Below, one piece after another: positions 15,980-33,625 of a stretch of 64,000 bases of DNA. The notes below the pieces were generated by a model. That model was not told where the DNA came from, did no database searches, and saw only the letters and a program-made list of their open reading frames with translations. Position numbers and translations under genes: made by a program. How positions within the stretch are numbered: position 1 is the stretch's first letter; every line of letters begins with the position of its first letter. Source of the DNA: Paracoccus sigandri (GTDB lineage: Bacteria; Pseudomonadota; Alphaproteobacteria; Rhodobacterales; Rhodobacteraceae); contig NZ_QNRC01000009.1 in NCBI RefSeq assembly GCF_003709565.1, positions 62,001 through 126,000 of the forward strand. Reading direction: 5' to 3'.

Positions 15980-16810
15980 TCAGCGGCGCGCCTCCATCGC
16001 CGTCTTCAGCACCATCACGACCAGCGCGATGACCGTCAGGGTCGAGGCGGCGGCGAAGGCCCCGGCGATGTTGAGGTCGTTGAACAGCAGCTCGATCTGC
16101 AAGGGCAGCGTGTTGGTCTGCCCCCGGATCGAGCCCGAGACCACCGAGACCCCGCCGAATTCGCCGACCGCGCGCGCCGTGCACAGCACCGCCCCATAGA
16201 GCAGCGCCCACCGGATATTGGGCAGGGTCACGCGGCGGAAGACCTGCCAGCCCGAGGCCCCCAGCGTCACCGCCGCCTGTTCCTGTTCCGACCCCTGCGC
16301 CTGCATCAAGGGCAGCACCTCGCGCAGCACGAAGGGCGAGGTGACGAACATCGTCACCATCACGATCCCCGGCAGCGCGAACAGGATCTGGATGTCATGG
16401 GCCAGCAGCCACGAGCCCAAGAGCCCCTGCCGCCCGTAAAGCAGCAGATAGCAGATCCCAGCGATGATCGGGGAAATCGAGAAGGGGATCTCGATCAGCG
16501 TCAGCAGCGCCTTGCGGCCGCGGAACCGGAACCGGGCGATGGCCCAGGCGGCGGCGATGCCGAAGGCGATGTTGACGGGCACGGTCAGCAGCGCGACCAG
16601 CGCCGTCAGGGCGATGGCGTGCAGCGTGTTCGGCTCAAGGATATTGGCGGCAAAGACCTGGAAGCCCTGGGCGAAGGCGCGGTGGAAGATATAGGCCAGC
16701 GGCACCACCAGAACGGCGATGGTCAGCAGCACGGCGGCGGCGATCAGCGCCTTTGCCACCCGCTGGTCAGGGCGCGGCGCCAGGGCGCCGGGGGCGGCGG
16801 CGGGTCTCAT
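15980..16810 (-). CDS. cysW: Sulfate/thiosulfate ABC transporter permease
   Basis: One of the two membrane subunits of the sulfate importer, 276 residues, six hydrophobic segments. The EAA loop that docks on the ATPase is visible (EQAAVTLGASGWQVFRRVTLP), as is the sulfate-permease signature ARAVGEFGGVSVVSG. It overlaps cysT by ATGA (16807-16810) and is the last gene of the operon. Confidence 0.93.
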   Translation of the reverse strand: MRPAAAPGALAPRPDQRVAKALIAAAVLLTIAVLVVPLAYIFHRAFAQGFQVFAANILEPNTLHAIALTALVALLTVPVNIAFGIAAAWAIARFRFRGRKALLTLIEIPFSISPIIAGICYLLLYGRQGLLGSWLLAHDIQILFALPGIVMVTMFVTSPFVLREVLPLMQAQGSEQEQAAVTLGASGWQVFRRVTLPNIRWALLYGAVLCTARAVGEFGGVSVVSGSIRGQTNTLPLQIELLFNDLNIAGAFAAASTLTVIALVVMVLKTAMEARR

Positions 16811-17661
16811 GCCCCCTTCCCCTTGTAGCGCATCGCCCGCGCCTGCAGCAGGTTCGAGGCGACCAGCAGCACAAGCGCGATGAACAGCAGCACCAGCGCG
16901 ATGGCGGCGGCGCCGTTATAGTCGTATTCCTCCAGCCGGATGAAGGCCAGAAGCGAGGCGATCTCGGTCTTCATCGGCAGGTTGCCGGCGATGAAGACCA
17001 CCGCGCCGAATTCCCCCAGCGAACGGGCGAAGGACAGGGTGATGCCGACCAGCCAGGCGGGCAGGATCGCCGGCAGGATCACCCGGTAGAAGATCGTCCA
17101 GCGATGCGCGCCAAGCGTCACCGCGGCCTCCTCGTATTGCGGGTCCAGGTCCTCCAGCACCGGCTGGACCGAGCGCACGACGAAGGGGATCGAGGTGAAG
17201 GACATCGCCAGCGCCACGCCCCAGATCGTATAGACGACCTCGATCCCCAGCGGCTGCAGCAAGGCCCCATACCAGCCGTTGCCCGCGAAAAGCGCGGTCA
17301 GCGCCAGGCCGGCGACGGCGGTGGGCAGCGCGAAGGGCACGTCCATCAGCGCGTCCAGCAGCCGCTTGCCGGGAAAGTCGTAGCGCACCAGCACCCAGGC
17401 CATCAGCAGCCCGTAAAGCGCGTTGAAGATCGTGGCCATGGTGGCCGCGACCAGCGTCAGTTGCAGCGCCGCCCGCGTGCGCGGCGCGGTGATGATCTGC
17501 ACGAAGCGTTCGGGCCCGATCTCGGCCCCCTTCAGCACCAGCGCGATCACCGGCAGCAGGACGATGACGCCGACATAGGTCAGCGTCACGCCCATGGTCA
17601 GGCCGAAGCCCGGCAGCACCCGCTTGGCGCGGACCGGCGCGGCTGGTGCAATTGCCGTCAT
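16807..17661 (-). CDS. cysT: Sulfate/thiosulfate ABC transporter permease
   Basis: The partner membrane subunit of CysW, 284 residues, six hydrophobic segments, EAA loop EEAAVTLGAHRWTIFYRVILP and SLGEFGAVVFIAGN. Also named CysU. Overlaps sbp upstream (17658-17661) and cysW downstream (16807-16810), each by 4 bases, which fits a fixed 1:1 subunit ratio. Confidence 0.93.
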   Translation of the reverse strand: MTAIAPAAPVRAKRVLPGFGLTMGVTLTYVGVIVLLPVIALVLKGAEIGPERFVQIITAPRTRAALQLTLVAATMATIFNALYGLLMAWVLVRYDFPGKRLLDALMDVPFALPTAVAGLALTALFAGNGWYGALLQPLGIEVVYTIWGVALAMSFTSIPFVVRSVQPVLEDLDPQYEEAAVTLGAHRWTIFYRVILPAILPAWLVGITLSFARSLGEFGAVVFIAGNLPMKTEIASLLAFIRLEEYDYNGAAAIALVLLFIALVLLVASNLLQARAMRYKGKGA

Positions 17662-18650
17662 TGGTTGACGAACAGCCTGTCGAGGATCGCGCCCTCGGCC
17701 AGATGCTCCTCGCCGATCTGCTCCCAGCCGCCGAAGACATCCTCGGCCGTGACCAGCTTCAGCTCGGGGAAGCGATCAGCGAATTCGGCCTTCACCGTCT
17801 CGTCATGCACGCGATAGTCGTTCTCGGCCAGCAGGCGCTGACCCTCGGGGGAATAGAGGAAATCCAGGTAAGCCTTGGAAACTTCCTCGCTTCCGTTGCG
17901 CGCCGCGTTCTCGGACACGACCGCGACCGGGAATTCGGCCAGAAGGCTCAGCGAGGGCGTGACCTGCTCGAAGCCCTGGTCGGCATATTGCCTGGCGATC
18001 TGCGCGGTTTCGGCCTCGAAGGTGATAAGCACGTCGCCCAAGTTGCGCTCGGCGAAGGTGGCGGTGGCGGCGCGCCCGCCGGTGTCGAAGACCGGGACAT
18101 TGGCGAACAGCCTGCCCACGAAGTCCTGCGCCGCCTCGTGATCGCCGTCATTGACCTCCAGCGCATAGGCATAGGCGGCCAGATAGGTATAGCGCGCATT
18201 GCCGCTGGTCTTGGGATTGGGGAAGATCACCTGCACGTCCTCGGCCACCAGGTCGTCCCAGTCCTCGATCCCCTTCGGATTGCCCTCGCGGACCAGGAAC
18301 GACGGCAGCGAGTAATAGGGCGAGGCATCGTTGGGGAAGGCCTCGCGCCAGTTCTCGTCGACCAGCCCGGCATCGGCCAGGACCTGGATGTCGGTGGTCT
18401 GGTTGAAGGTCACGACATCGGCGGGCAGCCCCTCCAGGATCGCGCGCGCCTGGCGCGAGGATCCGCCATGCGACTGGTCGATGGAAACATCGCGGCCGGT
18501 CTCGGCCTTCCACTTCTCGGCGAAGACCGGGTTGATGGCGGCGAACAGCTCGCGCGCGATGTCGTAGGACACGTTGAGGATGGCGTCCTGGGCCGAGGCC
18601 GGCGCGGCAAGGCCGAGCGTCAGCGCGGCGGCAAGAAGGCGGGTTTTCAC
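17658..18650 (-). CDS. sbp: Periplasmic sulfate-binding protein
   Basis: Captures sulfate for the CysTWA importer. The 330-residue precursor starts with a Sec signal peptide (to about residue 20, ASA-Q). The family signature QSHGGSSRQARAILEG and the later NPKTSGNARY loop supply the main-chain and serine contacts to sulfate. Start is GTG at 18650 with AAGGAG eight bases upstream, overlapping the cysA stop as GTGA. The operon order cysA-sbp-cysT-cysW differs from the enteric cysPTWA order. Confidence 0.93.
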   Translation of the reverse strand: MKTRLLAAALTLGLAAPASAQDAILNVSYDIARELFAAINPVFAEKWKAETGRDVSIDQSHGGSSRQARAILEGLPADVVTFNQTTDIQVLADAGLVDENWREAFPNDASPYYSLPSFLVREGNPKGIEDWDDLVAEDVQVIFPNPKTSGNARYTYLAAYAYALEVNDGDHEAAQDFVGRLFANVPVFDTGGRAATATFAERNLGDVLITFEAETAQIARQYADQGFEQVTPSLSLLAEFPVAVVSENAARNGSEEVSKAYLDFLYSPEGQRLLAENDYRVHDETVKAEFADRFPELKLVTAEDVFGGWEQIGEEHLAEGAILDRLFVNQ

Positions 18651-19747
18651 AGTCGTTGCTCCTTGAAGGCGGGAAGGGGGGCGGGCGTGGCGGGCTGGTC
18701 GGAACGCGGCGCGGCGGGGAAGATGCGGCCGGCCTCGGGGCGCAGCAGCACGGGCTGGCCGGTCTCCAGCCCGGCGATGCGGCGGCGCGGCATCTCGGCC
18801 TCGATGCCGCACCCGTCGGGTCCGGTCAGCTGCAGCCGCAGCAGCGCCCCGGTCGAGACGATCTCGGCCACGCGGAAACAGCCCTCGGGATCGGGGCGGA
18901 CCGCGATGTCCGAAGGGCGCAGGAACAGCGTCGCCGGCCCGTCCGCCATGGCGCGGCGCGGCAGGGCGGTCAGGTCGATGCCCGGCGCCTCGGCCCGGCC
19001 CTGATGCATGGTGACCGGCAGTTCCACCGTCAGCCCGACGAAACGCGCGACGAAGGCAGAGGCCGGATGGTCGTAGATCTCGTCCGGGTGGCCGATCTGC
19101 TCGATCCGGCCCGCGCCCATCACCACGACGCGGTCGGCCAGCTCGAAGGCCTCTTCCTGGTCGTGGGTGACGAAGATCGTCGTGGTGCCGCTGGCTTCGT
19201 GGACCCCGCGCAGCCAGCGGCGCAGGTCGCGGCGGACCTGCGCGTCCAGCGCGCCGAAGGGCTCGTCCAGCAGCAGAAGCCGGGGCGAGATCGCCAGCGC
19301 CCGCCCCAGCGCGACCCGCTGGCGCTGGCCGCCCGAAAGCTCGGACGGATAGCGGTCGGCCAACGCGTCGATCTGCAGGAAATGCAGCAATTCCCTGACC
19401 CTGGCCTCGATCTGGGCCGAGGGCGGGCGCTGGCTGCGCGGCAGGACGGTCAGGCCGAAGGCGATGTTGTCGCGCACCTTCATATGCGGAAACAGCGCGT
19501 AATGCTGGAAGACGAAGCCGGTGCGCCGGGCCTGCGCGGTCCGGCCCAGCCAGTCCTGCCCGTCGACCGCCAGGCTGCCCGCATCGGGCCAGTCCAGCCC
19601 GGCGATGATGCGCAGAAGCGTCGTCTTGCCCGACCCCGAAGGCCCCAGCAGCGCGACCAGCTCGCCCTTGCCGATGTCGAGGTCGATGCCGCGCAGCACC
19701 TCGGTCTGGCCGAAGCGGCGGGTCATGTTGGCGATCGAAAGGCTCAT
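18647..19747 (-). CDS. cysA: Sulfate ABC transporter ATPase
   Basis: Energises sulfate uptake. 366 residues: Walker A GPSGSGKTT, signature LSGGQRQRVALGRAL, Walker B LLLLDEPFGALDAQ, switch histidine in VTHDQEEA, then a C-terminal TOBE-like regulatory domain. Start at 19747 has AGGAC upstream. First gene of the operon; the 180-base upstream region (19748-19927) contains an imperfect promoter region and the inverted repeat GGAAA-N7-TTTCC (19835-19851), a possible site for a LysR-type sulfur regulator. Confidence 0.93.
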   Translation of the reverse strand: MSLSIANMTRRFGQTEVLRGIDLDIGKGELVALLGPSGSGKTTLLRIIAGLDWPDAGSLAVDGQDWLGRTAQARRTGFVFQHYALFPHMKVRDNIAFGLTVLPRSQRPPSAQIEARVRELLHFLQIDALADRYPSELSGGQRQRVALGRALAISPRLLLLDEPFGALDAQVRRDLRRWLRGVHEASGTTTIFVTHDQEEAFELADRVVVMGAGRIEQIGHPDEIYDHPASAFVARFVGLTVELPVTMHQGRAEAPGIDLTALPRRAMADGPATLFLRPSDIAVRPDPEGCFRVAEIVSTGALLRLQLTGPDGCGIEAEMPRRRIAGLETGQPVLLRPEAGRIFPAAPRSDQPATPAPLPAFKEQRL

Positions 19748-19834
19748 GTTGGCGTCCTGTTCCCTTGCGGTGAAGCTAAGCAGCGCGCAGGACGAAGCCA
19801 AGGAAAGGAACCCTGTCATTTCGACGGCGGTTTT

Positions 19835-20470: not shown

Positions 20471-21724
20471 TCACGCCGGCAGGACGCGGACCCGGCGGCG
20501 CTTGGCGTCGGGCTCGGGCGGCAGGCCGGCATGCAGGCGCAATTCGGGCGGCGTGCAGTCCAGCCGGCGGCCCAGATCGGCCAGCGCGTCGCGCAGCGGG
20601 CGCTCGGCATCGCCCTCGGCGCCGTCCAGCCAGATCTCCAGCACATTGCCCCGCTGGATCGCCCGCCAGTCGCGCAGCCGCAGCGGCAGGCAGGCGATCA
20701 TGGTGCGGATCGCATCGGCCGGCACCAGCCGCAGCCCCGCGCGGCCGGGCCACCACAACATGTCGTCCTCGCGCCCCTCGATCCGGGCGATGCGCAGGCT
20801 GGCGCAGCCGCAGGGGCATGGCGCGGGATCGGGGACCAGCACGTCGTCCAGCCGATAGTTCAGGATCGGCAGGCTTTCGCGGGTAAAGTCGTGGATGATC
20901 GGGCAGAAGGCGCCGGTGGCCGGGTCGATCACGTCGCGTTCCACCCGCAGCCAGCCCTCGTTCAGATGCAGGCTGCCGGCGCGGCAGGTCATGGCCAGCA
21001 CGCCCTCGGTCGCCTGATAGACCTCGTCGACGGGCACGCCGAAGGCCGCGGTGATCGCCGCGCGATCCTCGGGCAGCAGGGTCTCGGCGACCGAGATCAG
21101 CCGCTGCGGCGCGATGCGCGGGCCGGCCAGCGCCAGCTGCCCCAGGATGCGGGCGGGCGCGATCACCACGGTCGGGTCCAGCGCCTCCAGCCGCGACAGG
21201 TGATCCTGCCAGGGCGTCAGCATGTCGAAGAACTGAAACCGCACCAGCGGGTTCGACAGGCGGCGATAGAGCGCGTTGTCGGCGCGCATGAAGAAGGCCA
21301 CGCGCTGACGCCGCGCCAGGCTTGGCCAGAAGCGGCCCAGCATGATCGCGGCCCACAGCGCGCGTTCGCGCGGCGTGGACAGGAACAGCCCGCGCTGGCC
21401 CGAGGTGCCGGTGGACAGCCCGACCGCGACCTTGCCGATCATCGGGCTGAAATCGCGGCTCTCCTCGGCGCGCAAGGCCACGTCCAGCGCCTGGTCGTAT
21501 CGAATGCCGCAGGTGTTGATGGCCGAGAAATTCTCCATCAGCCGCGCCTTCGACATGCGCGGCAGGGCAGCCAGGGGCACCTGCGCCAGGTCGCGATAGA
21601 AGGGCGAACGCGGCATGACCCGCTGGCGAAACAGCGCGAAGGCGCGGGCGTGATGGGCCTCGATCTGCGCGCGGTCGCGAAAGCCGCGGCCATAGCGGGC
21701 CGAGAGGAAGGCGGACAGGCTCAT
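20471..21724 (-). CDS. Adenylate-forming enzyme, PaaK/F390-synthetase-like
   Basis: A 417-residue AMP-forming ligase related to phenylacetate-CoA ligase (CapK/'F390 synthetase-related' group). The phosphate loop is STGTSGQRG (104-112); the adenine-side motif is VYQATEGVLA, and a CPCGC cluster (zinc-knuckle-like, usual in PaaK relatives) follows NYRLDDVLV. It should activate a carboxylate as the adenylate and pass it to CoA or a carrier. Last gene of the cluster, overlapping the metallo-hydrolase by 4 bases (21721-21724). The substrate is not known. Confidence 0.75.
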   Translation of the reverse strand: MSLSAFLSARYGRGFRDRAQIEAHHARAFALFRQRVMPRSPFYRDLAQVPLAALPRMSKARLMENFSAINTCGIRYDQALDVALRAEESRDFSPMIGKVAVGLSTGTSGQRGLFLSTPRERALWAAIMLGRFWPSLARRQRVAFFMRADNALYRRLSNPLVRFQFFDMLTPWQDHLSRLEALDPTVVIAPARILGQLALAGPRIAPQRLISVAETLLPEDRAAITAAFGVPVDEVYQATEGVLAMTCRAGSLHLNEGWLRVERDVIDPATGAFCPIIHDFTRESLPILNYRLDDVLVPDPAPCPCGCASLRIARIEGREDDMLWWPGRAGLRLVPADAIRTMIACLPLRLRDWRAIQRGNVLEIWLDGAEGDAERPLRDALADLGRRLDCTPPELRLHAGLPPEPDAKRRRVRVLPA

Positions 21725-22503
21725 GGCGCGGTCTCGGGGCAATGCGAGGGGTCGAGGGTGATCTCGGGCCGGACCGCCATCAGCGCGCGCAGCGCGGCGA
21801 AGGTCCGACGATAGGCCCGCGCGTCGCCCAGCCGCGCCAGCACCAGGCCCGGCGGCATCCGGCCGCTGCGCAGCGCCGCGCGGCCATAGGCGGCATCGGC
21901 GATCAGGAAGCGCGCGGCCTGCGGGATCCACAGCCCGGTCTGGCCGGTGCCGTGGCCCGGCAGCGGCACCGCGATCAGCTGCCCGTCGCCCAGCAGGTCA
22001 TGGCCCCCCGAAAAGCCCGGCAGGCCGGTATCGACGGCGGGGCGGTTCTCGATCAGCGTCAGCTTGCGCGACAGCACCATGTCGCGCAGCAGCGGCGGAC
22101 AGGCGGCGCGGGTGGCGCCCCAGTCCGAGAGGCCGCGCAGATGGGCGATGGCCCCGGCCGAGACGGCGACCGGGACATGGGCGGGCAGATCGGCCAGCCC
22201 GGCGACGTGATCGGCGTGCAGATGGGTCAGCATGACCAGGTCGGGCAGGCGCGGCAATTGCGGTGCCAGGCGCTCGGCCGGCGGCAGCTCCACCGGCGTC
22301 AGCCAGCGATAGAAGCGCGCGGGCAGCCGGGCGGTCGCCTGGAAGAAGGCCGGGCCATAGCCGCAATCGACCAGCACCGTGGCGGTTCCGGTTTCGATCA
22401 GCGTGGCCAGCGCGGGAAAGCGGACCGGCCGCAACCCGCCCTGCCCCGCGGCCCAGCCCGAGGCCCGGCAGGACCCGATCCGCAGCGTGGTCAGGCGAAG
22501 CAC
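21721..22503 (-). CDS. MBL-fold metallo-hydrolase
   Basis: A 260-residue metallo-beta-lactamase-fold hydrolase with the zinc motif THLHADH (H94, H96, D98, H99), further ligands in LPGHGTGQTG and IADAAYG, and DPSHCP near the C-terminus. The early VDCGYGPAF is typical of quorum-lactonase-like and thioesterase-like members. It overlaps the epimerase gene by 13 bases and starts with GTG, so translation is coupled. In this cluster it may hydrolyse a thioester or lactone. Confidence 0.8.
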   Translation of the reverse strand: MLRLTTLRIGSCRASGWAAGQGGLRPVRFPALATLIETGTATVLVDCGYGPAFFQATARLPARFYRWLTPVELPPAERLAPQLPRLPDLVMLTHLHADHVAGLADLPAHVPVAVSAGAIAHLRGLSDWGATRAACPPLLRDMVLSRKLTLIENRPAVDTGLPGFSGGHDLLGDGQLIAVPLPGHGTGQTGLWIPQAARFLIADAAYGRAALRSGRMPPGLVLARLGDARAYRRTFAALRALMAVRPEITLDPSHCPETAP

Positions 22504-23423
22504 TCGGCCAGTCCCTCCTCGAAGCTGACCAGGGGCCGATAGCCCAGGTCGCGCCGCGCGGCCGAGATGTCCAGCGTCAGGCTGCGCCCCAGCGAGGCGA
22601 CGGCCTGCCGGGTCAGGGCGGGCTCGGCGCCGCCGCGGCTGCGGGCGAAGGCTTCGGCCGCGGTGGCCAGCGACATGGCCAGCGAATAGGGGATCGGCAG
22701 GCGGCGGAAGCGCAGCCCGCTGCGGCGCCCGGCGATCTCGACCAGGTCGCGGAAGGCGAAGGCCCGGCCCGAGGTCACGTTCCAGACCCGCCCGCCCGGC
22801 GCCGAGGCCGCAAGGATCATCGCGCGGGCCGCGTCGCGCCGGTGGGTCACGTCGATCAGCGCCCGCCCGCCGCCGATCATCGGCACCGTCCCGCGCCGCA
22901 TCGCCCCGATCAGCCGCGGCAGCAGCGCGCGGTCGTGGCGGCCGTAGATGGCGCGCGGGCGGATGGCGTTGCAGCGCATCTGCCCGTCGGCGGCCAGCAC
23001 CATCTGTTCGGCCAGCCGCTTGGAATGGGCATAGGGCGTTACGCAGCGTCCGGGCAGGGGCGCGTCCTCGGCCACGTCCAGGCGGTCGGTGCCGTCGGCG
23101 TAAAGGCTGGGGGTCGAGGCGAAGACGAAGCGCATCACCCCGGCCCGTTCCGCCGCGTCCAGCAACCGGCGCGTGGCGGTGACATTGGCGGCGATGAATT
23201 CCGCCTCGGCCCCCCAGGCGGAACTGAGCGCGGCGCAGTGAAAGACCACGTCGACGCCGGCCAGCAGCGGGCGCAGGTCCGCGGTGACCAGGTCGGCGGC
23301 CATGAAATCGGGCAGCGCGGCAGGCATCCGCGCCGTCGTGCGCAGGTCCCAGCCATGCGCGGCAAGCTCCTCGACAAGGGCGCGGCCAAGGCAGCCCGAG
23401 GCTCCGGTGACAAGCGCGCGCAT
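22491..23423 (-). CDS. NAD(P)-dependent epimerase/dehydratase (extended SDR)
   Basis: 310-residue extended short-chain dehydrogenase: GASGCLG nucleotide loop (7-13), active-site S/T near 103-104 and YAHSK (Y131, K135). The family includes 3-beta-hydroxysteroid dehydrogenase-like and OleD-like beta-ketoacid reductases as well as sugar epimerases. Next to a KAS III, reduction of a beta-keto product is the more economical reading. Its ATG shares a base with the stop of the KAS III gene (TGATG). Confidence 0.8.
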   Translation of the reverse strand: MRALVTGASGCLGRALVEELAAHGWDLRTTARMPAALPDFMAADLVTADLRPLLAGVDVVFHCAALSSAWGAEAEFIAANVTATRRLLDAAERAGVMRFVFASTPSLYADGTDRLDVAEDAPLPGRCVTPYAHSKRLAEQMVLAADGQMRCNAIRPRAIYGRHDRALLPRLIGAMRRGTVPMIGGGRALIDVTHRRDAARAMILAASAPGGRVWNVTSGRAFAFRDLVEIAGRRSGLRFRRLPIPYSLAMSLATAAEAFARSRGGAEPALTRQAVASLGRSLTLDISAARRDLGYRPLVSFEEGLAECFA

Positions 23424-24412
23424 CAGAACCTCACCACCGCACCGCCGAGCGAGATGCCCGCCGAGGTTCCGATCAGCAGCGCATGGTCGCCGCGCTTCAG
23501 GCGCCCGCTGCGCACCGCATGGTCCAGCGCCGTCGGGATCGAGGCGGCGATCTGGTTGCCGGTGCGGGCGAAGATGTTGACCACCCGCTCCGCCCCCAGC
23601 AGCAGGTTCTGGATGGCGTGGTTCAGCGATTGCGCGCTGGCCTGGTGCGGAATGACGCAATCGAGCCCGTCCAGCCCGACCCCGGCCTTCAGCAGCAGCC
23701 GGCGCAGGAAGCGCGGCAGATGGCGCGAGGCGACGCGGAAGGCCTGCTGCCCGTCCATCCGGAAGCGGTCCTCGCCCTCGGCGATGCCGCGCGCCGGGTT
23801 CACGCGGGTGCCGCCCGCTGCCAGCACGCAGGCCTCGCGGCCCTGCCCGTAGGTCTCGAACCCCGAGGCCAGCAGCGCGCCCCCGCCCCTGCCCGCCTCC
23901 AGCACCGCCGCCGCGGCGCCGTCGCCGAAGATCGCCGCCGCATCGGGCCGGCGCCAGTCCAGCCCGACCGAGGCGATGTCCGAGGAAAAGACCAGCACCC
24001 GCTTCGCGCGGCCGGTCGCGATATGCAGCGCCGCCAGGTCCATCGCCTTCATGAAGCCCAGGCAGGTGGCGTTCACGTCCCAGGCGGGCGTGCCGCTGCG
24101 GCCAAGGCCCAGCCGATCCTGGACCAGCACCGCGGTCGAGGGGATCGGCTGCTCCATCACGCCGCAGGCGCCGATGATCAGGTCCAGGTCGCGCGGCGTG
24201 CATTCCGCCATCTCCATGGCCTCGCGCGCCGCCTCGGCCGCCATGGCGGAACTGGTCTCGTCCTCGTCCGCGACATGGCGCGACCGGATGCCGTAAAGCG
24301 CATGGCAGCTGCCCGGCCGCCAACCCAGCCGGGCGTCGATTTCTTCCGAAGTCAGGACGCGGCGGGGCTGATAGCTGCCGGTGCCGCGGATCGTCAGGGG
24401 AATCGGGAACAT
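23423..24412 (-). CDS. 3-oxoacyl-ACP synthase III-like enzyme (KAS III)
   Basis: A 329-residue FabH-fold condensing enzyme with the full Cys-His-Asn triad: C117 (NATCLGF), H256 (IPHQAS), N286 (ARTGNQIAASIP). It would condense an acyl-CoA with malonyl-ACP or a second acyl thioester. The location in a regulated cluster with an epimerase, a hydrolase and an adenylating enzyme shows it is not the housekeeping FabH. First gene of the minus-strand operon, divergent from tetR. Confidence 0.85.
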   Translation of the reverse strand: MFPIPLTIRGTGSYQPRRVLTSEEIDARLGWRPGSCHALYGIRSRHVADEDETSSAMAAEAAREAMEMAECTPRDLDLIIGACGVMEQPIPSTAVLVQDRLGLGRSGTPAWDVNATCLGFMKAMDLAALHIATGRAKRVLVFSSDIASVGLDWRRPDAAAIFGDGAAAAVLEAGRGGGALLASGFETYGQGREACVLAAGGTRVNPARGIAEGEDRFRMDGQQAFRVASRHLPRFLRRLLLKAGVGLDGLDCVIPHQASAQSLNHAIQNLLLGAERVVNIFARTGNQIAASIPTALDHAVRSGRLKRGDHALLIGTSAGISLGGAVVRF

Positions 24413-24428
24413 GGCTGATACCGTTATT

Positions 24429-24439
24429 GGACAGTGTTC
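24429..24439. promoter_or_regulatory. Predicted TetR operator, copy 1
   Basis: GGACAGTGTTC, 17-27 bases before the KAS III start: one mismatch from the perfect dyad GAACA-N-TGTTC found again at 24483. It would overlap the minus-strand promoter region. Confidence 0.6.
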
Positions 24440-24446
24440 ATTAACC

Positions 24447-24476: not shown

Positions 24477-24482
24477 ATTTTT

Positions 24483-24493
24483 GAACATTGTTC
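24483..24493. promoter_or_regulatory. Predicted TetR operator, copy 2
   Basis: GAACATTGTTC is a perfect 5-1-5 dyad located between the tetR promoter and its ribosome site; the sister copy at 24429-24439 guards the opposite operon. Confidence 0.65.
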
Positions 24494-24517
24494 AGCAAGC
24501 CAATCGGAAAGGGAGCC

Positions 24518-25108
24518 ATGGCCCGCCCGCGCCAGTATGATCACGACGCCCTCAGGGCCTCGACCATCGAGGCCGCCCGCCGCCTTCTGGAGGAAGGCGG
24601 CCCCACCGCCCTGACCGCCCGCGCGCTGGCGCAGGCCGTGCGCACGACGCCGGGCACCATCTACAACCTGTTCAGCGGCATGAACGAGGTGCTGCTGGAG
24701 GTGAACCGGCAGGGCTTCATCGAACTGGCCCAGGCCGTCGATTCGATCAGGCCGGGCGATCCGCGCGACTGGCTGATCGCCATGGCCGATACCTATGTCG
24801 ATTTCATGGTCCAGCGCCCGGTCGTCTGGCGCGGGCTGTTCGAGGGGCCGCGCGTCACCGAGGAATTTCCGCGCTGGTATATCGGCCTGATCGACGCGCT
24901 GATCGACCGCGTGGCGGGCCCGATCGCGGCGTTGCAGCCGAAGACCTCGCCACGCCAGCTGGCCGAGGAGCTGCTGATCTCGGTCCATGGCGTGGTGGCG
25001 CTGGCGGCCAGTTCAAGGCTGGACCTTCTGACCCATCAGGAGCCGCACGAGCTGGCCCATCGCATGATCGACCGCATGATCGCGGCGATCGGCTCGGGGG
25101 TGGCCTGA
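24518..25108 (+). CDS. TetR-family transcriptional regulator
   Basis: 196 residues with an N-terminal TetR helix-turn-helix (LTARALAQAVRTTPGTIYNLFSGMNEVL) and an all-helical ligand domain. The ATG at 24518 follows AAAGGGA. Placed divergently to the KAS III cluster with a pair of dyads between, it is the likely repressor of both its own operon (with the sulfotransferase) and the biosynthetic cluster. The ligand is perhaps an acyl-CoA or the pathway product. Confidence 0.88.
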   Translation: MARPRQYDHDALRASTIEAARRLLEEGGPTALTARALAQAVRTTPGTIYNLFSGMNEVLLEVNRQGFIELAQAVDSIRPGDPRDWLIAMADTYVDFMVQRPVVWRGLFEGPRVTEEFPRWYIGLIDALIDRVAGPIAALQPKTSPRQLAEELLISVHGVVALAASSRLDLLTHQEPHELAHRMIDRMIAAIGSGVA

Positions 25109-25110
25109 AC

Positions 25111-26211
25111 ATGAACGCGCTGAACCCGATGCGGCCCGAGGGATCGCCGCTGCCGGCGGCAGGCGATGCGCCGATGCGCGGCGGGCTGGTCCTGGGTTCG
25201 GCGCGCTGCGGATCGACGCTGGTCTCGCAGGTCCTGCGACTGCATCCCGACGTGCTGTCGCTGTCGGAACTGTTCTCGACTGCCGGCCCCCATGCCTTTC
25301 GGCCCGCGCGTCCCGGCGCGACGATCAGCGGCGCGCGTTTCTGGCAGCGGCTGGCCACGCCCTCGCGCGCCCTGTCGCGGATGGGCAATCCGGCGCTGGC
25401 CCCGGCCGAGTTCCTCTATGGCCGCCAGCCCTCGCCCGCCTTCGATCCGTTCTTCTGCCCGCCGGTCCTGGCCGTGACCCTGCCGCATCTGAGCGACGAT
25501 CCCGACGCGCTGTTCCAGCGGATCGGGGCGCGGGCGGCGCTGCGGCCAGATCTGCCGCTGGCGGATCACTACCGCGCGCTGTTCGCGGATCTGGCGGGGG
25601 ATGCGGGCGGCAAGATCTGGGTCGAACGCTCGGGCGGGTCGCTGGCCGCGGCGGGCACATTGCGCGCGATGTTCCCCGAGGCGCGGCCGGTCCTGCTGCT
25701 GCGCGACGGCGCGGATACGGCGCTGTCGATGCGCGATTATCCGGCGGCGCGGCTGGCGATCTGGATGTGGCGCCGGTTGCGGCCACTTGGGATCGACCTG
25801 CTGGGCCCGCGCAGCCATTACGGGCGCGGCGCGCTGTGGCCGGCGATCTCGGCCATCGGCGGGCGGATCGGGGTGGGCGCCATCCTGTCGCGCCGGCCCA
25901 GCCTGAAGGATTGCGGCGCCTTCTGGTCGGCCGTCACCCTGGCCGGGCTGCGCGGGCTTGACGGCGCGAAGCCGCTGGTCCTGCATTACGAGGACCTGTG
26001 CCGCCAGCCCCGCAGCCAGCTTGTGCGGCTGGGCATCTACCTGACGGGCCGCGCGCCGGCCGGCTGGCTCGACGCCGCCTCGGCCCTGCCCCGGCCGCGC
26101 CCCTCGCGCGCGGCGACCCTGCCCGAGGCCGACCGCCGCGTGCTGCTCAATGCCTGCGAAAGGGGCGAATTCGCCCTGGCCGCCGTCGGCATGGCGCGGC
26201 GCGCGTCCTAG
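25111..26211 (+). CDS. Sulfotransferase family protein
   Basis: 366 residues with the 5'-phosphosulfate loop of PAPS-dependent sulfotransferases (GSARCGSTL, 29-37) and a downstream 3'-phosphate element (RPVLLLRDGADTALSMRDY). It would move sulfate from PAPS to a hydroxyl group of a lipid, sugar or small molecule. It starts 3 bases after the tetR stop, so it is cotranscribed with the regulator. The stop overlaps the convergent cytochrome gene in a shared CTAG. Confidence 0.75.
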   Translation: MNALNPMRPEGSPLPAAGDAPMRGGLVLGSARCGSTLVSQVLRLHPDVLSLSELFSTAGPHAFRPARPGATISGARFWQRLATPSRALSRMGNPALAPAEFLYGRQPSPAFDPFFCPPVLAVTLPHLSDDPDALFQRIGARAALRPDLPLADHYRALFADLAGDAGGKIWVERSGGSLAAAGTLRAMFPEARPVLLLRDGADTALSMRDYPAARLAIWMWRRLRPLGIDLLGPRSHYGRGALWPAISAIGGRIGVGAILSRRPSLKDCGAFWSAVTLAGLRGLDGAKPLVLHYEDLCRQPRSQLVRLGIYLTGRAPAGWLDAASALPRPRPSRAATLPEADRRVLLNACERGEFALAAVGMARRAS

Positions 26212-26967: not shown

Positions 26968-28614
26968 ATGCCCGTGTCCGTTCCCTCCCCCTCCGCCCCG
27001 CGCCAGGTCTGGCCCGAGGAATTCGCCACCCGCTATCGCGAGAAGGGCTATTGGCGGGGCGAGACCTTCGGGGATTTCCTGCGCGCGCGGGCGGCCGCGC
27101 ATCCCGACCGGCTGGCCGTGGTCGATGCCCGCCACCGCTGGAGCTATGGCGAATTGCTGGCCCGGTCCGAGCGGGCGGCGCAGGGCTGGCTGGGGCTGGG
27201 CCTGCGCCCCGGCGACCGGGTGATCGTGCAGATCCCCAACGTCGCCGGGTTCTTTCCCGCCGTGTTCGGCCTGTTCCTGGCCGGGCTGGTCCCGGTCTAT
27301 GCCCTGCCCGCCCATCGCCAGACCGAGCTTGCGCATTTCGCCGCGCGGTCCGGTGCGAAGGCGCTGGTGATCCTGGACCGGCACGAGGGTTTCGACTATC
27401 GCCCGCTGGCGGCAGAGGTGCAGGCGGGCGCGCCGGAGCTGCGCCATGTGGTCGTGATCGGCGATCCGGGCCCGCATCTGGGCTTCGACGCGCTGCCCGA
27501 TGGCGGGCAGGCGCTGCCGCAGGTCGATCCCGCCTCGGTCGCCTTCCTGCAGATCTCGGGTGGCTCGACGGGGCTCTCGAAGCTGATCCCGCGCACGCAT
27601 GACGATTACATCTACAGCTTCCGCGCCAGCGCCGAGATCTGCGGGCTGGGCGCGGACAGCGTCTACATGGCCGCCCTGCCCGTCGCGCATAATTTTCCGA
27701 TGAGCTCGCCGGGCGTGATGGGCGCGCTCTACGCCGGATCGCGGGTGGTGATGTGTCCCAATCCCAGCGCCGACACCGCCTTCCGGCTGATCGCGCAGGA
27801 AGGCGTGACGATCACCGGCGTGGTGCCGCCGGTGGCGCTGTTGTGGATGCAGGCGGCGGCGAAGACGCCGCATGACATCTCCAGCCTGCAGGTCCTGCAG
27901 GTCGGCGGTGCGAAATTCATCCCCGAGGCGGCGGCGCGGGTGCGGCCCACGCTGGGATGCCGGCTGCAGCAGGTCTTCGGCATGGCCGAGGGGCTGGTGA
28001 ACTATACCCGCCTCGACGACCCCGAGGAGATCGTCGTCACCACGCAGGGCCGCCCGATCAGCCCCGATGACGAGGTGCTGGTGCTGGACGATGACGGCCG
28101 ACCCGTCCCCGAGGGCCAGCCCGGCCACCTGCTGACCCGCGGCCCCTACACGATCCGCGCCTATCACGATGAGCCGGCGGCGAATGCCCGCAGCTTCACG
28201 CCCGACGGCTTCTACCGCACCGGCGACATCGTCCGGCGGCTGCCGAGCGGCCATCTGGTGGTGCAGGGGCGCGCGGGCGACCATATCAACCGCGCCGGCG
28301 AAAAGATCTCGGCCGAGGAGATCGAGGACCACCTGCTGGCCCATCCCGGCATCTTCGACGCCGCCGTGGTCTCGATCCCCGACGCCTTCCTGGGCGAACG
28401 CAGCTGCGCCTTCGTGATCCTGCAGCCCGGCGCGGCCCTGCGCGCGCCCGAGGTCAAGGCCTTCATGCGCGGACGCGGCCTGGCCGAGTTCAAGGTGCCC
28501 GACCAGGTCGTCTTCGTGGAGGAATTCCAGACCACCGCCGTCGGCAAGGTCAGCCGCAATGTTCTGCGCGCCCAGTTGCGCGCCCGTTTTCTGGACGAAG
28601 GAAAGACGCCATGA
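26968..28614 (+). CDS. entE: (2,3-dihydroxybenzoyl)adenylate synthase
   Basis: Activates 2,3-dihydroxybenzoate with ATP and loads it on an aryl carrier protein, the first step of catecholate siderophore assembly. 548 residues; P-loop SGGSTGLSK (197-205). The aryl-acid pocket HNFPMSSPG (241-249) has Asn242 and Ser247, equivalent to Asn235/Ser240 of DhbE; Ser at the latter site favours dihydroxybenzoate over salicylate, where Cys is usual. Overlaps the carrier gene by ATGA. The ribosome site (GCAGGT) is weak. Confidence 0.92.
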
Positions 28615-28847
28615 CCCTGACGCTCGACAAGATGCGCGCGGATGTCGCCGAACTGATCGACCTCGACCCGTCCGAGATCGGCGACGACGACATCCTGCCC
28701 GACCTGGGCCTGGATTCGCTGCGGCTGATGCGCCTGGTCCTGGCCTGGGAAGAGGCCGGGCTGAAGGCCGATTTCGGGCTGTTCGCGGAATATGCGACCC
28801 TTGGCGACTGGTGGCGCGAGGTCGTCCAGCCCGCCCAAGCCGCCTGA
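28611..28847 (+). CDS. Stand-alone aryl carrier protein
   Basis: A 78-residue phosphopantetheine-binding protein; the arm attaches to Ser36 in LGLDSLRLM. In E. coli the same domain is the C-terminal part of EntB, fused to isochorismatase; here it is free. Between EntE and the NRPS, it should carry dihydroxybenzoate to the condensation domain. It overlaps entE by 4 bases and the NRPS starts one base after its stop. Confidence 0.85.
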
Positions 28848-28848
28848 G

Positions 28849-31800
28849 ATGACCCTGACGGCCCCCATCCGGCCCGACCCCGCCGCATCCGCCGCATATC
28901 CGCTGACCGAGGCGCAGGAGGGCTTGTGGTATGCGCAGGCGCTGGATCCCGCCAATCCGATCCTGAACACCGGGCAATATCTGGACCTGCGCGGGCCGCT
29001 GGACCTGCCCGCCCTGCGCAAGGCGCTGGCGCGCACCATCGCCGAATCCGAGGCGCTGCACCTGCGTTTCCACAGCGGCCCGGACGGTCCCCGGCAATGG
29101 CTGTCGTCCGAAGGCATCGCGCCGCGCATCGTCGACCTGAAAACCCATCCCGCGCCGGAATCCGAGGCGCTGGCGCAGATGCAGGCCGACAGCCGCCGCG
29201 CGCTGGACCTGACCGCCGATCCGCTTGCCGCCTTCACCCTGTTCATCCTGTCGCCCGAGCGGCAACTGCTTTACGAGCGCATCCACCATCTGGCGATCGA
29301 CGGCTATGGCATGGTGCTGGTCACCAACCGCATCGCCGAGCATTACGCCGCCCTGACCGGCGCCGGCCCGGCCCCGACGCCCTTCCCGCCCTATCAGCGC
29401 GCCCATGACGAGGATGCCGCCTGGCGCGCATCCGACCGGCGCGCAGCGGCCGCCGCATGGTGGCGATCCGCGATGGCCGACCTGCCCGAGGTCGCCGGCC
29501 CCGCGCCGGGCCGCGCCGTCGGCGGCGACCGTTTCATCCGTGAAAGCATGTGGTTACCTGTAGATCTTGCGGCTTTGCTTGAGGATTTCTCGGACCGGCA
29601 CCGGCTTGGCTGGCCGGACGTGCTGACCGCGCTGGCCGGGGCCTATCTGGCGCGCTGGACAGGCGGCGAATGCGTGATCGGCCTGCCCTTCATGGCGCGG
29701 ATGGGCCGCAGGATCGCGCGCCTGCCCTGCATGGCGATGAACGTGCTGCCGCATCGGCTGCGCCCGGACGAGGACATGCCCCTTGCCGACTGGCTGGCAG
29801 CCCAGGCGCGCAGCTTCCGCGAGGCCCGCCGCCACGGGCTTTACCGCAGCGAATACCTGCGCCGCGACCTGGGGCTGATCGGCGGCTCGCGCCGGCTCTA
29901 CGGCCCGCTGGTCAATGTCCAGCCCTTCGACCGCCCGCCGGTCTTTCCGGGGCTGGAGGTCGGGCTGCACATCCTCGGCGCCGGCGCGGTGGACGACCTG
30001 ACCCTGACCTTCCGCGGCGATCCGCAGGCCGGGATCCTGTTCGAGGTGGACGCCAATCCCGCCCTCTACACGCCGAAGGACGTCGCCGGCCATTCCGCGC
30101 GCCTTGCGGCCTTCCTCTCCGCCGCGCTGAAGGCGCCCTCGCTGGCCCATGTTCCGACCGCCAGCCCCGCGGAAATCGCCGAAGCCGAGGCCGTGAACGC
30201 GACCGGCCATCCGGTCCCCGACACCACCCTGACCGCGCTGATCGAGGCGCGGATCAAGGCCAGCCCCGACGCGCCGGCCATCAGTTTCGGCGACCGCACC
30301 ATCAGCTTCGCCGAGCTGGACCGCCGCAGCGCCGCCCTGGCCGCGCGTCTTTCCGCGCTTGGCGCCGGGCCGGGCCGCATCGTCGCGGTCGCGCTGGAAC
30401 GCTCGCTGGAGCTGCCGGTCGCGCTGCTGGCCATCCTGCGCGCGGGCGCGGCCTGGCTGCCGCTGGACCCCGACCACCCGCCCCGGCGGATCGCGGCCAT
30501 CCTGTCGCGGGCGCGGCCCGCCGCCGTGCTGACCTCGCCCGAACTGGCCGGGCTGTTCCCCGGCGACGCGCCGCTGCTGTCGACCACCGACTGGCCCCTG
30601 GAGGGCGCTGCCCCCGCCACGCCGCCGGCGCCGGGCGACCTGGCCTATGTCATCTTCACCTCGGGCTCGACCGGCGAGCCCAAGGGCGTGATGATCGAAC
30701 ACCGCGCCATCGTGAACCGGCTGCTGTGGATGGCGGCGCAATACGGCATCGACGCCAGCGACCGGATCCTGCAGAAGACCCCGGCGACATTCGACGTCTC
30801 GGTCTGGGAGTTCATCCTGCCGATGATCGTCGGGGCGGAGCTGGTCATGGCCGCCCCCGGCGCGCATCGCGACCCCGCCGCCATCGCCGCCGCGATCCGC
30901 CGCCACGGAATCACCACGCTGCATTTCGTGCCCTCGATGCTGTCGGCCTTCCTGGCCTCGCCCGCGTCCCAAGGCTTGGCGCTGCGCCGCGTCTTCTGTT
31001 CGGGCGAGGAACTGACCGCCGATCAGCGCGCGCGTTTTCACAGCAGAATCAACGCGCAACTGCACAATCTTTACGGGCCGACCGAGGCCGCCGTCGATGT
31101 CAGCTTCTGGCCGGCCGCGCCCGATGACGACAGCAATCCCCTGCCGATCGGCTGGCCGGTCTGGAACACCCGGCTGGAGGTGCTGGACGACCGGATGCGC
31201 CCGCTGCCGCCGGGGCTGGCGGGGAACCTCTATCTGGGCGGGGTGCAGCTGGCGCGCGGCTATCTGGGCCGCGACGACCTGACGGCGGAACGCTTCATCC
31301 CCGACCCGACGCGGCCCGGCGAAAGGCTCTATGCCACCGGCGACCTGGCGCGGCGGCGGGCCGATGGCGCGGTGGTCTATCTGGGCCGCGACGACCATCA
31401 GGTGAAGATCCGGGGCCTGAGGATCGAGCTGGGCGAGATCGAGGCGGCGATCATGGCCAGCGGCCTTGCCCGCCAGGCCGTCGTGCTGGCGCGCGAGGAC
31501 CGGGCAGGCGACAGGCGGCTGGTCGCCTATCTGGTGCCCGCGCCGGGCTATGCCCCCGGCGCGCTGGCCCCGCGCCTCGCCGCCAGCCTGCCCGCCTATA
31601 TGGTTCCCTCGGCCGAGATCGCGCTGGACGCGCTGCCGGTCACCGCCAATGGCAAGCTGGACCGCAAGGCCCTGCCGGCGCCGGAATTCCGCGCCGCGGG
31701 CCGGGCCGCCGGAACCGAAACCGAGCGGCGGCTGGCCCGGCTGTTCGCCGAGATCCTGCACCTGCCCGAGCCCGCCCCGGCCGAGGCGGATTTCTTCGCG

Positions 31801-32727
31801 CTTGGCGGCGATTCGCTGTCGGCGGTGCGGCTGGCGCTGCGCATCGAGGAGGAGACCGGCCGCGATCCCGGCCTCGGCACGATCTTCGAACATCCCGTGC
31901 TGTCGGCGCTGGCACAGGCGATCGAGGCCGAGGCACAGGATGACGGGCTTGGTGCGCTGATCCTGCTGGCCGATGGCGATCCCGGCGCCCCACCGCTGTT
32001 CCTGGTCCATCCGGCGGGCGGCATCGGCTGGGGCTATCGCCACCTTGCGCGGCGGATCGCCCCCGCGCGGCGGGTCTGGGGGCTGCAGCATCCGGGGCTG
32101 GACCCGGACACCGCGCTGCCCGAAAACCTGGACGCGCTGGCCCGCGACTATGTGCGGCATGTGGTCGCGCTGCTGCCGCAGGGGCCGGTCCACCTGGCCG
32201 GCTGGTCGGTCGGCGGGATCATCGCCCAGGCGATGGCGGTGGAGCTGGCGGCGCGGGGCCGCGAGGCGGGGCTGGTCGCGCTTCTGGACAGCTATCCCGC
32301 CGATGCCTGGCGCGATGAGCCCGAGCCCGATCCGGTCGCCGCCCTGCGCGCGCTGCTGGCCATCGCCGGCCACGACCCGGACGCGCATCGCGACCTGGAC
32401 ACGCGCGCGAAGGTCGTGGCCTTCCTGCGCGCGGCCGGGACCACGCTCGGCGCGCTGCCCGAACCCGTGCTGGACGGCGTCGTCCGCCTTGTCACCGATA
32501 CCAACCGGCTTGTGCGCAGCCATCGCCATCGCCCGATGGCGGGGCGGCTGACCCATTTCCGCGCCGCGCTGGACCACAAGGATCGCGACCTGAGCGCGGC
32601 GATGTGGCGCCCCTATGCCGCAGAGATCGAGGTGCTGGAGGTGCCGTTCCTGCATTCGCAGATGACCTCGCCCGAGGCATCGGCGCTGATCGCGCCGGAA
32701 CTGGCCCGCCGGCTGGAGGGGTATTGA
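28849..32727 (+). CDS. entF: Serine-activating siderophore NRPS (C-A-PCP-TE)
   Basis: A 1292-residue one-module synthetase, almost the length of E. coli EntF (1293). Condensation domain with HHLAIDG (146-152); adenylation domain with TSGSTGEPKG (604-613); carrier with GGDSL (Ser989); thioesterase with GWSVGG (Ser1120), D1147 and H1269, the same Ser-Asp spacing as EntF. The specificity residues D649, V650, W653, H692, F716, S718, L741, V749, D750 and the invariant Lys read DVWHFSLVDK, the EntF serine code. Expected product: a dihydroxybenzoyl-serine oligomer, probably the cyclic trilactone. A short block of rare codons lies at 29530-29589. Confidence 0.93.
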   Translation: MTLTAPIRPDPAASAAYPLTEAQEGLWYAQALDPANPILNTGQYLDLRGPLDLPALRKALARTIAESEALHLRFHSGPDGPRQWLSSEGIAPRIVDLKTHPAPESEALAQMQADSRRALDLTADPLAAFTLFILSPERQLLYERIHHLAIDGYGMVLVTNRIAEHYAALTGAGPAPTPFPPYQRAHDEDAAWRASDRRAAAAAWWRSAMADLPEVAGPAPGRAVGGDRFIRESMWLPVDLAALLEDFSDRHRLGWPDVLTALAGAYLARWTGGECVIGLPFMARMGRRIARLPCMAMNVLPHRLRPDEDMPLADWLAAQARSFREARRHGLYRSEYLRRDLGLIGGSRRLYGPLVNVQPFDRPPVFPGLEVGLHILGAGAVDDLTLTFRGDPQAGILFEVDANPALYTPKDVAGHSARLAAFLSAALKAPSLAHVPTASPAEIAEAEAVNATGHPVPDTTLTALIEARIKASPDAPAISFGDRTISFAELDRRSAALAARLSALGAGPGRIVAVALERSLELPVALLAILRAGAAWLPLDPDHPPRRIAAILSRARPAAVLTSPELAGLFPGDAPLLSTTDWPLEGAAPATPPAPGDLAYVIFTSGSTGEPKGVMIEHRAIVNRLLWMAAQYGIDASDRILQKTPATFDVSVWEFILPMIVGAELVMAAPGAHRDPAAIAAAIRRHGITTLHFVPSMLSAFLASPASQGLALRRVFCSGEELTADQRARFHSRINAQLHNLYGPTEAAVDVSFWPAAPDDDSNPLPIGWPVWNTRLEVLDDRMRPLPPGLAGNLYLGGVQLARGYLGRDDLTAERFIPDPTRPGERLYATGDLARRRADGAVVYLGRDDHQVKIRGLRIELGEIEAAIMASGLARQAVVLAREDRAGDRRLVAYLVPAPGYAPGALAPRLAASLPAYMVPSAEIALDALPVTANGKLDRKALPAPEFRAAGRAAGTETERRLARLFAEILHLPEPAPAEADFFALGGDSLSAVRLALRIEEETGRDPGLGTIFEHPVLSALAQAIEAEAQDDGLGALILLADGDPGAPPLFLVHPAGGIGWGYRHLARRIAPARRVWGLQHPGLDPDTALPENLDALARDYVRHVVALLPQGPVHLAGWSVGGIIAQAMAVELAARGREAGLVALLDSYPADAWRDEPEPDPVAALRALLAIAGHDPDAHRDLDTRAKVVAFLRAAGTTLGALPEPVLDGVVRLVTDTNRLVRSHRHRPMAGRLTHFRAALDHKDRDLSAAMWRPYAAEIEVLEVPFLHSQMTSPEASALIAPELARRLEGY

Positions 32728-32739
32728 CGCCCCGCCCGG

Positions 32740-33576
32740 TCAGGCGGCGGCGAAGGGCAAGGCCAGCGGCAGCGATCCGGCGATGGTCTGGATATGGATC
32801 GCCCCCTCCAGCACATGGAGCTGCGGCGCCAGCCCCTGCCGGTCGCGCAGGTCCGCCGCGAACTGCATCGTCGCCGGGGCCGGCCCGTCCGGCGGCGGCC
32901 CGTCGCTGCCCGAGCGTTTCTCGCGATCCCCCAGCGCCATCAGCAGGGGCGGCGCGTCCTGCATCCGCCCGGCGGCATCGGCGATGCGGCGGATCAGCGG
33001 CTCGTCCCACCAGATCGAGGGGCTGATCGCCGCATAGCGCGCGAAGGCCCGCGGCCGCACCAGCAGCGCATAGAGCGTGAACAGCCCGCCGAAACTGTGC
33101 CCCCACAGGCTGCGGCGCGCGGGGTCGATCGCCAGCCCCTCCTCGGCCGCCGCGCGCAGCGGGCCGGTCAGGCGGTCCAGGAACAGCGCCGCGCCCCCGG
33201 CCATGCGCCCCGGATGGACCGGATCGGGGCGGATACCGTCGCCCGGCCCGTCGGGCGCGGTGAAATCCATCGTCCGCCGTTCCCGCGCGAACTGGCGGTC
33301 GGTGTCATAGCCGATGCCCGCCAGCACCAGGCCGGGCGCCATCGCCAGATGCTCGGGCGTCAGGAAATCGAAGGCGGCATTGCCGTCCAGCAGATAGAGG
33401 ACCGGCCAGCCCCCCTGCGGCGCATTACAGCGCGGCACGGCCAGGAACAGCCGGTGGCCCGGCCCGCAATCGACCACCTTCCGCGACAGCCGGTGCGTGG
33501 GCGGATCACCCTCGAAGATGCGCAGCTCGGCCCGATTGCGCGCGTGATCCGGCCCGACGCGACCCCTATGCGACAT
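32740..33576 (-). CDS. Siderophore esterase-like alpha/beta hydrolase (Fes/IroE type)
   Basis: 278 residues; nucleophile in GHSFGG (S161), and a C-terminal histidine in GAIHIQ. The layout VLYLLDGNAAFDFL near the start is that of the esterase-D/IroE group that opens ferric-enterobactin type trilactones to release iron. No signal peptide, so cytoplasmic. It converges on the NRPS (12-base gap) and its start faces the importer operon across an iron-type operator. Start ATG at 33576 follows AAGGGG; GTG at 33582 is possible. Confidence 0.8.
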   Translation of the reverse strand: MSHRGRVGPDHARNRAELRIFEGDPPTHRLSRKVVDCGPGHRLFLAVPRCNAPQGGWPVLYLLDGNAAFDFLTPEHLAMAPGLVLAGIGYDTDRQFARERRTMDFTAPDGPGDGIRPDPVHPGRMAGGAALFLDRLTGPLRAAAEEGLAIDPARRSLWGHSFGGLFTLYALLVRPRAFARYAAISPSIWWDEPLIRRIADAAGRMQDAPPLLMALGDREKRSGSDGPPPDGPAPATMQFAADLRDRQGLAPQLHVLEGAIHIQTIAGSLPLALPFAAA

Positions 33577-33625
33577 GTTCACACCCCTTCTTCCCGATCC
33601 CGGCCCCTTCCGGCCAGCAGATGGT

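Follow-up and report, generated by a model that had tools for sequence, protein, structure and literature searches.

A conserved four-gene cassette in Paracoccus sigandri and distant bacteria that probably builds an undescribed lipid

The cassette and its surroundings in Paracoccus

The stretch of Paracoccus sigandri DNA analysed here (64,000 nucleotides; hereafter the window) comes from a 4.9 Mb genome and carries four overlapping genes on its minus strand. The first, at 23423..24412, encodes a KAS III-family ketosynthase (KAS) of 329 amino acids that falls in the chain-joining CorB/MxnB clade, and it is followed by a 310-residue extended SDR (Epimerase/3beta-HSD), an OleD-like reductase, at 22491..23423 with its ATG at 23423. 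The third gene, which has a GTG start (21721..22503), encodes a 260-residue hydrolase of the metallo-beta-lactamase fold (MBL), predicted to belong to the AHL-lactonase structural subfamily, and the fourth (20471..21724) encodes a 417-residue adenylate-forming ligase with a predicted PaaK fold, a member of TIGR02304, 'F390 synthetase-related'. These assignments rest on open reading frames and profiles, together with trees for the KAS and SDR and predicted folds for the MBL and ligase, and the families of all four proteins were confirmed by Pfam and NCBIfam domain searches.

The ORF coordinates reproduce the overlaps reported in the initial annotation: 1 base between the KAS stop and the SDR gene, 13 bases between SDR and MBL and 4 between MBL and ligase. 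Its statement that the catalytic residues are kept was likewise borne out, as the C-H-N triad is present in 79 of 79 cassette KAS proteins, the seven metal ligands (H94-H96-D98-H99-H184-D203-H254) are invariant in 36 cassette MBLs, the PaaK-type adenylation motifs and the C-terminal Lys408 are invariant in 35 cassette ligases, and the SDR retains YxxxK. Pairwise dN/dS values against P. alcaliphilus are 0.21, 0.24, 0.57 and 0.29 for the four genes, and those between the E. coli and Citrobacter cassettes are 0.05-0.10 where computable; all four genes are intact and under purifying selection.

A TetR-family regulator gene (Pfam; plus strand, 24518..25108, with its ATG at 24518 and the ORF listed from TTG 24488) diverges from the cassette and has the same place in P. 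alcaliphilus (locus L102). Two near-palindromes that conform to TGAACAnTGTTCA and are spaced by 54-55 bp lie in the gap between the KAS and tetR genes: one operator-like site, TGGACAGTGTTCA (24428..24440), lies just upstream of the KAS gene, and the other, TGAACATTGTTCA (24482..24494), upstream of tetR. Twin sites of the same type were also found in P. alcaliphilus and in P. methylarcula (L021). From this arrangement, we infer that the divergent TetR probably controls the window cassette through the two putative operators. Among the best 80 of at least 587 relatives, a TetR gene is not adjacent to the cassette in most lineages.

Beyond tetR lies a gene for a Sulfotransfer_3 family sulfotransferase (25111..26211, plus strand; Pfam), which, with homologues beside other cassettes, is a probable tailoring enzyme of the alphaproteobacterial version. 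Sulfate ABC transporter genes (a CysA-like ATPase, a binding protein and two permeases) occupy 15980-19819, near the cassette and the sulfotransferase gene, and P. alcaliphilus has such genes in this neighbourhood too; this transporter could feed a sulfated product. At 26968-33582, the window also holds a catecholate-siderophore-like cluster with an EntF-like NRPS, an oppositely oriented esterase-like gene and a homologue of the DHB-AMP ligase (TIGR02275, 698 bits, slightly below the cut-off); P. alcaliphilus has an NRPS and an AMP-binding gene at the same place.

Affiliation of the four enzymes

The first enzyme had been named a KAS III; the family stands, and the tree and signature residues refine it to the CorB/MxnB type, neither a generic FabH nor an OleA. 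Compared with solved structures, the window KAS scores 223 bits for CorB, 209 for MxnB, 176 for FabH and about 63 for OleA, and it is ~40% identical to CorB/MxnB. In a maximum-likelihood tree, 38 cassette KAS proteins and CorB/MxnB form a single clade (support 97/96) apart from FabH and OleA. Ser259 and Gly315 are shared with CorB in 100% of cassette KAS, whereas FabH has Asn/Ala. The column of Glu117, the catalytic glutamate that the partner subunit supplies in X. campestris OleA, holds Ile in 47 and Leu in 32 of the 79 cassette proteins; the controls have Glu (OleA, 3/3), Val (CorB/MxnB) or mostly Phe (FabH). Although FabH/KAS III profiles score 226-342 bits on the window KAS, the FabH model TIGR00747 gives 226 bits, under its cut-off of 292, and the same genome encodes a separate housekeeping FabH; with its place outside the FabH clade, this led us to reject the identification as FabH. 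An identification as OleA was also rejected: the protein has the C-H-N triad, but the glutamate is replaced in all 79 cases and the cassette KAS lie outside the OleA clade.

CorB and MxnB, of the corallopyronin and myxopyronin systems, thus share clade and signature residues with the cassette KAS, but they belong to multimodular PKS clusters, where their substrates are beta-ketoacyl carrier proteins; the cassette encodes neither a PKS nor a carrier protein and adds a reductase, a hydrolase and a ligase. In vitro, MxnB links two beta-ketoacyl chains, and CorB/MxnB make alpha-pyrones (PMC5724707). Kresovic et al. pointed out the Glu-to-Val difference and proposed that such a base may be dispensable when a beta-keto chain offers its doubly activated carbon (PMC4578411). 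The sequence comparison suggests that the cassette KAS may join an activated chain to another chain. Because the retained triad also serves decarboxylative malonyl condensation, the first step may nevertheless take either form.

For the second enzyme, the naming as an epimerase/SDR was correct. Its best NCBIfam match is OleD (NF042422), at 175 bits and far under the equivalog cut-off of 580, followed by a second OleD model and then HpnA, and in the tree the cassette SDRs form their own clade beside OleD but separate from it. Another group of OleD-like SDRs, scoring about 240 bits, occurs at two loci (L116, L118) in genomes with no TIGR02304 match (family f34).

The metallo-beta-lactamase fold was upheld by the predicted structure (pLDDT 95.9) and narrowed to the lactonase subfamily. 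Structurally, the model is matched best by AHL lactonases and 4-pyridoxolactonase, with Z 24-27 over 214-238 of its 260 residues, whereas GloB and beta-lactamases reach a Z of about 16-17. The AHL lactonases AiiA, AiiB and GcL and 4-pyridoxolactonase have the predicted fold and the full metal-ligand set in common with the cassette MBL, which differs in its identity of at most 22%, its biosynthetic operon context and its scores below the NCBIfam cut-offs. Since phosphotriesterases belong to the same structural subfamily, this predicted kinship with lactonases does not prove a lactone substrate. PqsE-type MBL thioesterases are absent among the top structural matches listed, which is no evidence against a thioesterase role. 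A cysteine near the N-terminus, Cys12 of a GxC motif, is invariant in the 36 cassette MBLs.

The fourth enzyme had been described as a PaaK-type ligase. The fold assignment was right, but the protein is a member of TIGR02304 (375.9 bits; curated cut-off 251.9) and distant from PaaK proper (TIGR02155, 20 bits; cut-off 646). It has no AMP-binding Pfam match, and sequence and structure matches of its model (pLDDT 90.2) place it nearest to the PaaK-like ligases BT_0428, NatL2, AjiA1 and PaaK1. TIGR02304 is an NCBIfam family with a PaaK fold and no known function, and its name points to no pathway; the cassette ties one of its members to a four-gene unit. A search of the open-licence literature for 'F390 synthetase-related' found nothing. 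In Pseudomonas syringae pv. actinidiae, a Tn5 mutant of IYO_RS29540, a gene annotated 'Coenzyme F390 synthetase' and a possible counterpart of the cassette ligase, showed reduced virulence on kiwifruit (PMC9823363).

Conservation, spread and genomic neighbours

A search with the TIGR02304 profile covered 299 genomes from the phylum and 61 from the genus and gave seven matches in each set, the source genome being counted in both; the distribution is therefore patchy, as for an accessory trait. SDR and MBL homologues adjoin the ligase in every locus taken from the other TIGR02304-positive genomes. A wider scan through the ligase, with one genome per species, gave at least 587 relatives, of which the best 80 loci were examined; 4 truncated by contig ends were set aside, leaving 76 testable. 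All four genes lie on the same strand within 7 kb in 73 of these 76, a set that spans Proteobacteria, Campylobacterota, Bacilli and Streptococcus; the four genes also occur together in Fusobacterium. The three exceptions (L030, L043, L069) have no adjacent KAS gene. The commonest order is KAS-SDR-MBL-ligase; it is SDR-MBL-ligase-KAS in Streptococcus and Fusobacterium, and in most Bacilli an ATP-grasp gene follows the KAS gene. Automatic starts were wrong for some GC-rich SDRs (spacings of -238 and about +1000), and the overlaps quoted are those of the window and of clear cases. At L105, on plasmid pBASL58 of Pseudomonas sp. Leaf58, the cassette is interrupted by other genes and departs from the tight order, the KAS gene being followed by an SDR gene and, ~5 kb farther on, by those for MBL and ligase. 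In Paenactinomyces (L057), a second, diverged TIGR02304-like ligase gene lies ~8.5 kb from the cassette on the opposite strand.

When pairwise distances at 38 diverse loci are compared between the four proteins, they correlate with r 0.82-0.90, a value reached in none of 2000 permutations, which indicates that the four genes travel as one unit. The initial annotation had staked its proposal of one coupled pathway on the genes being found together elsewhere; that synteny held, and with the distance correlation it supports such a pathway. The four-gene synteny and the low pairwise dN/dS exclude a chance arrangement. The copies of P. alcaliphilus, Paracoccus sp. MA and Ketogulonicigenium are plasmid-borne, and in the maximum-likelihood KAS tree the Thalassospira copy nests within those of Rhodobacterales; the cassette thus moves horizontally. 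A phage origin was rejected, as there were no relatives among viral contigs and phage records gave two weak partial matches.

The four genes are present in 672 of 5426 complete E. coli genomes (12%), in nearly every case on the chromosome; ABU 83972, LF82 and the probiotic Nissle 1917 are among these strains. By identity, the E. coli copies fall into a group near 100%, a group at about 98.9% and a single copy at 90.7%. In ABU 83972 (L103, 9001-15882), they belong to a seven-gene run directly after narGHJI, between narI and a tRNA-Tyr pair, in which KAS, SDR, MBL and ligase genes are joined by those for a PAP2 protein, a member of the sterol desaturase family (FA_hydroxylase) and an acyl-CoA desaturase, the names being taken from Pfam on homologues.

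We grouped the neighbouring ORFs around the cassette loci among the best 80 of at least 587 relatives. Fatty acid hydroxylases occur at 22 loci (19 on the cassette strand), fatty acid desaturases at 21 (mostly same strand), PAP2 proteins at 20 (18 same strand), ATP-grasp proteins at 19 (mostly same strand), GNAT-like proteins, so named from annotation, at 12, and MGT-type UGTs at 8 (7 same strand). Sulfotransfer_3 genes are found at 7 loci on the divergent strand, and a homologue also stands beside the P. alcaliphilus cassette (L102); Rieske oxygenases occur at 6 loci and GT21/HpnI-like proteins at 4. Apart from the sulfotransferase genes, these partners mostly share the strand of the cassette. 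Enzymes that work on lipids or attach polar groups make up most of these neighbours, in keeping with a hydroxylated lipid core whose decoration varies with the lineage. The set resembles the tailoring of sphingolipids, in which a PAP2-type IPC synthase, a GT21 ceramide glucosyltransferase, a hydroxylase, a desaturase and a sulfotransferase take part; this likeness is an analogy.

Proposed pathway, alternatives and significance

The cassette probably builds an as yet undescribed lipid. As the most economical reading, we tentatively favour, at somewhat less than an even chance, a self-contained lipid-biosynthesis unit that would condense, reduce, activate and lactonise or transfer, yielding a beta-hydroxy lipid core, probably with two chains, that is decorated differently in each lineage. 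We infer the individual chemical steps, their order and the product as follows. The KAS would join two thioester-bound chains, an acyl and a beta-ketoacyl or other activated acyl group (a malonyl partner is possible), into a beta-keto product, which the OleD-like SDR would reduce to a beta-hydroxy (2-alkyl-3-hydroxy) acid. The TIGR02304 ligase would then adenylate the carboxylate, which would lead to an ester, amide or thioester or, as with OleC in the ole pathway, to a lactone; the lactonase-fold MBL may hydrolyse an off-product or an intermediate of the lactone or thioester kind. Decoration may come from the sulfotransferase in Paracoccus and relatives, from the hydroxylase, desaturase and PAP2 protein in enterobacteria, from ATP-grasp and GNAT proteins in Bacilli and Shewanella, and from glycosyltransferases elsewhere.

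The main rival, which we regard as unlikely although not far-fetched, is a single-chain route in which a FabH-like decarboxylative KAS would extend an unusual acyl starter with malonyl-ACP/CoA; the SDR would give the beta-hydroxyacyl group, the MBL would free the acid as a thioesterase and the ligase would re-activate it for head-group transfer, so that the product would be a one-chain beta-hydroxy lipid or a lipopeptide-like conjugate. The intact triad, the FabH/KAS III profile scores, an operon without a carrier protein and Ile/Leu in the Glu117 column, nearer the Phe of FabH than the Glu of OleA, are all consistent with it; however, the strongly supported KAS clade includes the two-chain enzymes CorB/MxnB and excludes FabH, and the MBL is more like lactonases than other MBLs. 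That CorB/MxnB produce alpha-pyrones, and that the photopyrones of another KS class serve as signals (PMC4578411), brings to mind a diffusible lactone or pyrone signal with its own lactonase for turnover and TetR as a butyrolactone-type receptor. The predicted quorum-quenching lactonase fold of the MBL and, in three Paracoccus-type genomes, the divergent TetR gene with its paired operator-like sites point the same way, but pyrone formation requires neither ligase nor reductase, TetR is not adjacent in most lineages, and the genes that recur nearby encode membrane-lipid tailoring enzymes and not receptors, which makes this reading improbable. The initial annotation had thought a modified fatty acid, lactone or lipid signal plausible: a lipid product agrees with our results, but the neighbouring genes elsewhere suit a signal no better than a membrane lipid or glycolipid.

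The initial annotation had also recognised an ole-like logic while denying that the genes are ole, and both points hold. The succession of reaction types (condensation, reduction, adenylation, lactone processing) is like that of the OleABCD olefin and NltABCD beta-lactone pathways, and OleD is the closest counterpart of the SDR. In principle, four enzymes with matching roles could represent a true olefin/beta-lactone pathway with highly diverged parts; yet the KAS lacks the OleA Glu base and lies outside the OleA clade, the lactonase-fold MBL replaces the alpha/beta hydrolase OleB, the TIGR02304 ligase replaces the PF00501-type OleC, and genuine oleABCD-like loci (L121, L122) look different. 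We therefore rejected ole membership, and a diverged ole pathway is scarcely credible. Supply of an acyl part to the catecholate NRPS is very improbable too: cassette and NRPS adjoin in the window and in P. alcaliphilus, but no such cluster flanks the cassette at the annotated loci of E. coli and Paenibacillus.

Returning to the two-chain core, a bolder and doubtful extension is that it forms the backbone of an undescribed lipid class, analogous but unrelated to sphingolipids, in ~12% of complete E. coli genomes and in oral streptococci. By this analogy, PAP2, GT21 glycosyltransferase or sulfotransferase might add head groups, and the hydroxylase and desaturase might edit the chains.

As a kind, the cassette belongs with KAS III-based chain-coupling lipid pathways. 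Searches of the open-licence literature with gene-name combinations found no description of it, and other open-licence papers on F390/CoF do not appear to concern it. Against that literature, the gene combination, its wide distribution and the link to TIGR02304 appear new; each enzyme superfamily was already known. Since Nissle 1917 has the whole set of four and is readily manipulated, product and function are directly testable. A deeply conserved, mobile biosynthetic unit has apparently escaped description despite well-studied hosts, among them E. coli Nissle 1917 and ABU 83972, Streptococcus sanguinis, Serratia, Pectobacterium and Xenorhabdus; with it, TIGR02304, a family without known function, gains a genomic context, and the CorB/MxnB ketosynthases are placed in a much wider enzyme clade.
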